Source: Thunnus maccoyii (lineage: Eukaryota > Chordata > Actinopteri > Scombriformes > Scombridae). From it: a stretch of DNA of 64,000 nucleotides. The notes beneath the pieces were generated by a model. It saw nothing but the letters and a program-made list of their open reading frames with translations. It was not told the DNA's origin and did no database searches. Positions 25,156-28,100 of this stretch are shown piece by piece. Position 1 is the stretch's first letter, and the number at the start of each line of letters is the position of its first letter. Made by a program: the position numbers and the translations under genes. The stretch is taken from NCBI RefSeq assembly GCF_910596095.1, contig NC_056550.1, positions 17,640,501 to 17,704,500 of the forward strand, read 5' to 3'.

Positions 25156-28100
25156 ATGGGCAACACGCCCACCGCAAAGAAGGGCAATGAGATGGAGAGC
25201 GGTGAGTACCCCTTACCCCTTATTACCCGGAGCTACAGCTGTGAGCTGGCCATATTATGCAGCCTGTCGCTGGGTCATTTTGCTGTAGTCATTTCCTGTT
25301 TCCCATAATGGCAGCGAAATAAAAAGTACAACTTAACACCAGGATAGTGCATCAAGGCCCAGAGACCCTCCACAAAGACATAATATTAGATTGCTTTCGA
25401 CACTGTTCTCTAATATGGATGCAGGGGTGATTATTATAAACTTTACTGGTTGTCAACTTTCGGTGAAAGACTCCCATCTACATATGAACTTTAGCCACAC
25501 TGTGGCTGTGATACCATGTTCATCTCAGCTGAGCAGCAGAGCAGCAAGAGGATGTTATTCATTCTCTCCACAGATTTTGTGGGAAAGCTCGTGATTAAAT
25601 GCCTCAAGTTATATTCAGAGGTACCAGCGAGGATGACAACGAGCCTTATACAACAGTCAGGTTTCTTTGTGGTTCATGTGTTTCAGATGTTTTTTCCCCT
25701 CTCTCCCCTCACAAGGTTATGAAAGGCTGCAGTAACATTATAACCTAACAGTTAGCCTGGTGTGGAGTTCTTTTCTTGTGCAGTTCTTGATAACCTAATT
25801 ACTTCATGAAAAACATATTCCTCATTGTATAGAAAGACATGTACAAAGTGGAGATGTACATATTATTCAGGAAGTTTATGTAAGTGGGTTGAATGTTAAT
25901 GTAATGTGGAAATGAGCATTGGGTCCCACAGACTGTGTTTGACACTAAGTGAGTAGAGGAGAGTTGGTTGTTATCAGAGAAGGAAAAAGCCACCAGGACG
26001 GGGTCATATGATGCACGCAGGGTGATCCTCTCCAGGCAGAAACTTGGAATTGAGGAGTCTCTTGAACATCATGTGATGAGCAGCATTTAGAACAAGGGCA
26101 CTTGTATGTGTCACTGAGTGTGTGTGTGCGCGTGTGTGCGCGTGCGTGACAGAGCAGAAGAGATGCTCCGCTCTTGCTAATAGTATTGTGGGCTGTTGCC
26201 CCCACAACTTTTTAGTTTATTGATGAGCCCCTTGAACATCGGTTAGACATCAGTTTTTATTTTAAAAAAGAAATGAGGCATTTGTACAAGCTAAGAAAAT
26301 AAATGACAATTACTGTACACCTTACTCTACAGTGTGAACTTCAGAGGTTAACTACTAAATGAGGGAACATTTCCATCCTGTTTCTTGCAAAAATGTTTGT
26401 CAACTCAGTCCAAGCATTTGTTCTTTCTTTTTCCAGTTAGGATCACTGGCCGTGGAGAAGGCCTGGGAGGACACGGTCTAATGTTTTTATCCATAACACC
26501 ATAAATAACGCTCAAGTGTGCAAAGTCTGAACAGCTATCTGCAAAATGAGCATCAGCTCCTTGTTGCTGGTAGAGAGTAGGTGTGAAGAATGGCCTCCAG
26601 TCCCTCTGTAACGTTAACCCATCCCTGGTAACCCCATGTAATAATGTTCATTACTTTCAGGAGTTGTAGCACAGATATTTGTTTCTTAAATGCTCAGGAA
26701 TCTACTGGAAAATAGAGGATTAGTAGGTTAGAAGCATGGACAGAGGAGGCACTGCTGGGGGAGGTTTGTTGAAATGCCCTGCATCACATCCTTATCAGCC
26801 TGATCGCTCTGGGCCCACCCTGATCCCCAGAGACAGGTGCTGACCAGGGGTCCAGAGCCCACACCCAAGAGCGTTATTTTCCACAGAGCAGCTTGAGATT
26901 AAGGACAAGATGGCATCCTGTTTTGGGTTCTATGGAAAAAAGAAAGTGGAGAGTGTTGAGAGCTGGTTCAGGTGCGCAGAGTCTGTTTCCCCTGAACTTT
27001 CCAGGCCGGAGAAGACGAGCGGAGAACAGCGCAGTAGTATATAGAGCCGAGTCCTGGCCCACAGGAAGAAGCAGGGCGGACAGACACTGTGAACTGCTGC
27101 AGGAAGTGAAGGAGCAAGGAAGGTCCAGCCCATGCTCTGCGTAGTTAGTCATCGCTTCTACTGAACTGAAGGTTTATACAGGGGACCAGGAAAGCTCTGG
27201 CAAGTTCTGGCGTTTAAGATACTGTGTGTGTTGCGCATTCTGGATTTCCCACTTGTTAAAACCTCTGGACATACTTCAGTGTTAAGACTCTACACAGGCT
27301 TTCAGCTGGCTTCCCCCAGCCTCGTGTGATGTCTCTTATTCACAGGCTGGCAGGGAGGCTGTTTCAACATGCCAGTCCCTGTCTGGGGGATCCAGGCAGT
27401 GGGGAAGGCAGACATGATCTACCACAGGAGGAGCTAGAGACTTGCTACTGGAGTGAGTTTTCATTCTGGATCTGGACCGGAGCATGGGTTAGGGGTGGAG
27501 CCGCGGCCCGCGTGTCCCACTAGTTAGCCAGTCACAAACTGAGCTCAAGTTCATACATTTAACAGATAATCAAGCTATTTTTTTCTCATGATAATGTTTG
27601 TTGCCATACTCATATCATGACTTGTCTTCTAGCTTTGGTGGAGTGATCTTTCATGTTGGCAGACATAGATTTTGCTGGTATTAATGGCCAGCAGCCAAGA
27701 CATATGTGCGTGCGGTGCATAGTCCATGTACATAAGTACACACATGGAGCAGCCTGTTGTTTGTCTCTGTTCTGTTGCCTATTGTTTCTTTACTTACATT
27801 TCAAAGGAAAGCACTCCTCACGTACTGTTGGAAGTGTCTGTCAGGCGTTGGACTGCACACTGTAAATCTGTCAGCCTTATCTATTATATGTAATAACCAT
27901 GTAATAACTAACCTATCCAAACACATGCATACTTTTTTTTTCTGTTTTTTTTTTTTTTTTGTGTCCCCTCTTGTGTCGTTTTCCTACATACTGGTAGGGC
28001 TCTAGCATGTCTGAGAGTTTGCTTGGAAATCTTTTCCTGTACTCAACACACTTAAACATCTGAGCAAGGCCGTGCTCAGCCAGTTATGACACAAGGGATG

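Follow-up and report, generated by a model that had tools for sequence, protein, structure and literature searches.

A candidate long alternative first exon of the 1-L type in intron 1 of a teleost prkaca gene

The translations, frame scans, simulations and structure predictions presented here suggest that a teleost prkaca gene probably uses a long alternative first exon resembling the exon 1-L of other vertebrates. The gene lies in a window of 64 kb, which is the whole stretch of DNA that was analysed and forms part of contig C18, in a genome of 782 Mb. We found the candidate inside intron 1, between exon 1-1 (25156) and exon 2 (34153), as an ATG frame of 41 codons (27329-27451) followed by a single A at 27452. 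The case for it rests jointly on where it lies, its phase, its junction, its helix core and its Trp, and on a control exon found in a related gene on contig C7. The idea of the long exon is in print for other vertebrates, and what is new is the teleost case and a possible split of such exons between duplicated genes.

Exon 1-L, which gives the isoform C-alpha-L, is placed between exons 1-1 and 2 of PRKACA in most vertebrate classes in the accessible passages of Soberg et al. 2017 (PMC5526564), where it was not found in mammals and birds and where teleosts are set aside. In the same passages it is judged paralogous to PRKACB exon 1-2, the exon of C-beta-2, and the gene that preceded the duplication is held to have carried such an exon, while in invertebrates no homolog of exon 1-L was found. 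Members of the long-exon family are described there as having predicted disorder, no N-terminal Gly and an amphipathic helix, likewise predicted, in which human position 21 is Lys/Arg (always so in the sequences studied) and human position 30 is Phe (reported as universal), with poor conservation outside of the helix. A Trp59, hypothesised to lie at the mouth of the myristate pocket, is reported for all family members except non-teleost fish (PMC5526564). The C-beta-2-specific part is given as 62 residues in the text available of PMC1557514, a number 'excluding the N-terminal Met' in that of PMC6143667, which also restates the description of long exons by Soberg et al. 2017. In the open-access literature we found prkaca exon 1-L only in PMC5526564 and PMC6143667, and among the matches listed there was no paper on a teleost C-alpha-L. 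The first-pass annotation of this DNA had proposed that prkaca holds a C-beta-2-type exon which predates the alpha/beta split; this is probably right and agrees with the accessible passages of PMC5526564, but it had been put forward in print already, and pairwise the sequences resemble each other weakly.

By published signature residues the kinase gene of the window is prkaca. Read from the tblastn rows, it carries 7/7 of the residues listed as invariable in C-alpha in the available part of Soberg et al. 2013 (PMC3625193), namely Q35, T37, E64, G66, H68, S109 and E334, and has H42 and K319 rather than the D42 and R319 of C-beta; Q67, which is invariable in C-beta, is also present. Exon 1-1 ends in a final G before the donor GTGAGT, in the same phase as the candidate exon, and TTACAG stands directly before exon 2 (Table 1). 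An ASF1 gene lies just upstream of prkaca, with its exon 1 at 18879 and a later exon that matches ASF1A/ASF1B in PDB (E ~1e-31); human PRKACA, we take it, adjoins ASF1B. The window also contains a GPCR-like reading frame at 2386-3420, a TRIM/RING gene near 6940 on the minus strand and a beta-tubulin exon at 10183-11322, the GPCR, TRIM and tubulin names within window 1-22000 being our assumption from the look of the sequence.

Table 1. Coordinates of the prkaca exons, the candidate exon and its surroundings, and the C7 prkacb exon (window positions unless a contig is named)
Feature	Position	Strand	Evidence
prkaca exon 1-1, C-alpha-1 start, 15 residues and first base of Val	25156..25201	+	tblastn, translation
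TATA-like TATATAG, possible promoter element, weak	27038..27044	+	pattern scan
Short upstream ORF, 10 codons and stop	27132..27164	+	sequence
Splice-acceptor-like TCTCTTATTCACAG over the candidate's first codons	27326..27345	+	pyrimidine count of YAG sites
Coding part of the candidate first exon (long, 1-L type)	27329..27452	+	sequence, translation, frame scans, simulations, structure prediction
Splice donor GTGAGT of the candidate exon	27453..27458	+	sequence, pattern scan
prkaca exon 2, 21 residues	34153..34214	+	tblastn, translation
prkaca exons 3-10	34683..39359	+	tblastn; outer limits approximate, some intron included
C7 prkacb exon 1-2, MAQGKDQSFASRLFHICRKTNQEHKGQESEVPHISEFTIMWDKL and A|GTAAGT	C7:17662231-17662362	-	tblastn, translation

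Read from sequence alone, the candidate has its own start codon and enters exon 2 in phase 1, and the 41-codon ATG frame with one spare base at GTGAGT, in the phase that matches exon 2, is exactly as the first-pass annotation had given it. The codon formed at the junction is A|TG, or Met. A Met-Lys-Glu-Phe-Leu junction, also claimed before, is indeed present, but only its Met, which comes from the final A, is informative, because KEFL is encoded by exon 2 itself. Upstream of the ATG the frame stays open for 23 further codons without an earlier ATG. Intron 1 is 8,951 bases long, and by chance an ordinary open frame in it could fall in phase at a GTGAGT and contain RLF. In fact the open frame alone is unremarkable, since 27% of 2,000 simulated introns (Markov-1) hold an ATG frame of at least 30 codons that is in phase at GTGAGT or GTAAGT, and under looser settings (25-90 codons, GTRAG) such a frame is found in 74-75% of simulated introns.

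The overall similarity of the candidate to real long exons is also what chance would give. Its LAGRLFQHA had been aligned with FASRLFHRH of human C-beta-2, and we observe that 4/9 residues of this alignment are identical (A, R, L and F), but a profile built from human C-beta-2 together with the C7 exon gives the candidate 0.5 bits, which is background; seven of the 76 rows, none of them the C7 exon, score higher. We take the human sequence that served as query and reference to be that of C-beta-2; its K21, F30 and W59 agree with the positions given in PMC5526564. When the window was searched by tblastn with human C-beta-2 or the C7 exon the candidate was absent among the matches listed, and against human C-beta-2 it has a local score of 21, which 8.5% of 2,000 Markov-1 introns reach. 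The references in these similarity tests were human C-beta-2 and the C7 exon; known C-alpha-L sequences would be the fairer comparison. Two features of the family are moreover missing or shifted. At human position 21, nine residues ahead of the Phe, an ungapped alignment places Leu3 of the candidate where the family has Lys/Arg, with Arg6, His5 aside, as the nearest basic residue; and Trp41 lies one residue before the junction Met, whereas in human C-beta-2 and in the C7 exon the distance is four. The Phe of human position 30 corresponds to F12 in the candidate's LAGRLF and falls within the predicted helix. As the Lys/Arg 21 test failed, and with human C-beta-2 and the C7 exon as the references compared, descent of the candidate from exon 1-L is probable and not established.

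What argues against coincidence is the combination of features, together with the control on C7. By tblastn of the C7 region, human C-beta-2 matches a long exon of the C7 prkacb gene at E 2e-4 (KDQSFASRLFHICRK...ISEFTIMWDK). Judged from its sequence this is an unmistakable exon 1-2 built on the same plan as the candidate, and thus a positive control for the method: it lies between exons 1-1 and 2 and has its own ATG, 44 codons, an A|TG junction, a GTRAGT donor and a Trp near its end, and it also has the Lys at human position 21. In a census of ATG frames of 25-90 codons that reach GTRAG in phase 1, taken over both strands of four regions (254 kb, n=79), 17 frames ended in A, 7 had a Trp in their last six residues and 3/79 rows showed the helix motif, these being the candidate and the C7 exon at two donors. 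Whether or not the helix motif is asked for, an A combined with a Trp is limited among the 79 to the C7 exon and the candidate. The helix motif, A and Trp occurred together in 6/20,000 introns simulated with Markov 1 and in 4/10,000 with Markov 3, for a motif that was loosened after the candidate had been seen.

The hexamer FASRLF, in contrast to that motif, was fixed from human and C7 only. Four of the 79 frames score at least 19 against it (two rows of the C7 exon, a third in which the C7 frame continues beyond its donor, and the candidate), and a match as good as the candidate's was found in 36/10,000 simulated introns, of which 6 also had the A and 1 the A and Trp, figures that are somewhat favourable because the threshold was set at 19, which is what the candidate scores. 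RLF inside a frame of at least 30 codons in phase at GTGAGT or GTAAGT was seen in 0.5% of 2,000 Markov-1 introns. On its own the helix core is not rare, because 33 of the 364,977 stop-free hexamers in six frames of the four regions are as near to FASRLF as that of the candidate. The place searched, this one intron, was set by the literature beforehand. Once helix core, A and Trp are required together the rate falls to 1e-4 (FASRLF) or 3-4e-4 (loosened motif), and of the 79 frames in the 254 kb none but the C7 exon has the three in common with the candidate, such that we consider a chance frame unlikely, if still deserving some weight.

Broader scans were made as well. A profile scan of 1,035 peptides (stop-to-stop frames of at least 12 residues from four first introns, both strands) found only the C7 exon above threshold; its best non-C7 row, at 5.4 bits, was a C12 sense frame, and the candidate was not among the matches listed. 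With the C7 exon alone above threshold, a second exon 1-L elsewhere in intron 1 was rejected. The helix motif matched 6 of the same peptides, these being the candidate, the C7 exon, three C12 sense frames and one C12 antisense frame. A genome search with the candidate DNA (27200-27600) returned its own place only, as did one with its 41 residues, and a scan of 25000-34500 showed no tandem repeats, so a repeat was rejected; likewise an RNA gene, as Rfam at the gathering score matched nothing in 24000-40000. Pfam gave nothing for the 41 residues, and a PDB search with them gave 0 matches.

Additional support for a used exon comes from the predicted N-terminal structure. The hydrophobic moment of the candidate's 11-residue helix stretch is 0.78, a value reached by 0.9% of shuffles, as compared to 0.68 (7.4% of shuffles) in human C-beta-2 and 0.64 (15.5%) in the C7 exon. 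AlphaFold2, run without an alignment, predicted a helix at residues 3-14, a short second helix at 33-38 and low confidence for the rest (pLDDT 80 for the first ten residues, mean 60.7). This predicted helix and linker match the published picture, yet they would be expected of many peptides. The helix bears on whether the candidate might be a decaying relic, that is, an exon 1-L which was inherited, is now unused and drifts, with its frame and donor still open by luck. The loss of Lys/Arg 21 and the shifted Trp would fit such decay, as would the C2 prkaca and C12 prkacb genes, in which our scans recognised no long exon, and the loss of exon 1-L in mammals and birds described in the accessible passages of PMC5526564. 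However, the candidate frame has no stop, its start and donor are intact, its amphipathic helix is stronger than those of the human and C7 exons, and known long exons are poorly conserved outside the helix in any case (PMC5526564, same passages), and we find decay an improbable account.

We also considered that the stretch might be a cassette or poison exon, which would follow exon 1-1 and run from the acceptor-like ATTCACAG ending at 27345 to the donor at 27453. This site has 11/15 pyrimidines upstream, equalled or exceeded by 33/329 YAG sites of the intron, on a count that is crude as an acceptor measure, as the true exon 2 acceptor itself has only 9/15. If exon 1-1 is spliced to this site, a stop ends the reading after 30 codons; the presence of a helix core in the ATG frame would be left unexplained; and the accessible passages of PMC5526564 report no additional medium or long PRKACA 5' exons; a cassette exon is in our view very improbable. 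For a first exon with a start of its own, a TATA-like TATATAG is present 291 bases upstream of the candidate ATG. A transcript that starts near this box would carry the short upstream ORF of Table 1, whose ATG at 27132 is the only one that a pattern scan found between 27061 and the candidate ATG. The context of the candidate start codon is moderate, with G at -3 and T at +4. A CpG-island promoter was unsupported (CpG o/e of 0.37 from -500 to +200), although this test is uninformative because the C7 exon 1-2 gives the same 0.37; a bacterial promoter/terminator scan was meaningless for fish DNA.

A search with a 200-residue kinase query and its follow-up revealed three further PKA C genes in the genome, on contigs C2, C7 and C12. 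The C2 gene has all seven C-alpha residues and is a second prkaca, the C7 gene is a prkacb by D42, Q67 and R319, and the C12 gene is a prkacb by D42 and Q67, read from the exons before its last. Two prkaca and two prkacb copies fit the teleost duplications in the available part of Soberg et al. 2013 (PMC3625193), and on this ground we regard the fish as a teleost. No comparable long exon was found in the C2 intron (2,210 bases) or the C12 intron (4,020 bases), by scans that are weak and in which the candidate, too, went unscored. A search of the whole genome with human C-beta-2 yielded two weak matches on C23 (E 1.68 and 3.62), outside the four PKA genes, and missed the C7 exon that tblastn finds, so this first-pass search is too coarse for exons as short as these. 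In DNA comparisons of C18 with each of the three paralogs at E 0.05 only exons 1-1 and 2 match. By the scans made, a long first exon is thus found in the C7 prkacb gene, probably in the C18 prkaca gene and in neither sister on C2 or C12.

Two side observations concern the prkacb copies. Intron 1 of the C12 gene contains two short and similar ATG frames 386 bases apart, MSENRKKCLSHFTQGQ and MSEYNEKCLKQFQKLQ, at 52179-52227 and 52565-52613 on the reverse strand (joined L047-L052); both close with CAAG|GTGA, in phase with exon 2, and may be short first exons (1-S) that this copy carries as a tandem duplicate. Furthermore, a block of ~100 bases is 84% identical between the C7 and C12 paralogs (E 5e-24; C7 53633-53732 and C12 53199-53296, both on the reverse strand of the joined loci). 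It lies ~650-770 bases before exon 2, has no obvious common open frame and is probably a conserved non-coding element.

For the candidate exon itself we infer descent, transcription, translation and function along the following lines. The stretch 27329-27452 would be what is translated of an alternative first exon that acts as PRKACA exon 1-L does, most likely derives from it and is the counterpart of PRKACB exon 1-2, and a separate upstream promoter would give transcripts spliced from 27452 to 34153, in which it replaces exon 1-1. The product would be a C-alpha-L kinase with an unchanged catalytic core and a 41-residue N-terminus that lacks the myristoylated glycine and forms an amphipathic helix at its very start, followed by what is probably a flexible linker. 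The Trp just before the core may fill the empty myristate pocket, as in the hypothesis of Soberg et al. More tentatively, and as a conjecture that we would sooner doubt than accept, the long N-termini may have been divided after the teleost duplication, with 1-L kept on C18 and 1-2 on C7 and both lost on C2 and C12; the C18 form, its helix at the extreme N-terminus, its basic residue lost and its Trp next to the core, would then be a C-alpha-L with altered targeting.

Alternative first exons decide the myristoylation of PKA and probably also its destination. The usual mammalian laboratory models cannot reveal the role of C-alpha-L, because exon 1-L was not found in mammals and birds in the accessible passages of PMC5526564. 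A teleost with an intact exon would permit the exon to be tagged and removed, and the candidate also bears on how isoforms are partitioned between duplicated fish genes.

Considering the known first exons of the family, the candidate is most readily set beside PRKACA exon 1-L, likened here through its published description: it is similar in gene, place and phase, in a long N-terminus without an N-terminal Gly and in a Phe within a predicted helix, but it lacks Lys/Arg 21, its Trp adjoins the junction and it has 41 residues. With PRKACB exon 1-2 it shares the A|TG junction (MKEFL), an xAxRLF core and a Trp near the junction, if at another distance from it, and with the C7 exon 1-2 in particular a GTRAGT donor, whereas the gene is a different one, the lengths differ (62 residues in human, 44 in C7, 41 in the candidate) and the similarity is at background. 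Exons of the PRKACA 1-S or C-alpha-2 type are, like the candidate, alternative first exons situated between exon 1-1 (or 1-L) and exon 2 that give unmyristoylated products, but the accessible passages of PMC5526564 limit short exons to the length of human exon 1-2, which has eight codons, against the 41 of the candidate.
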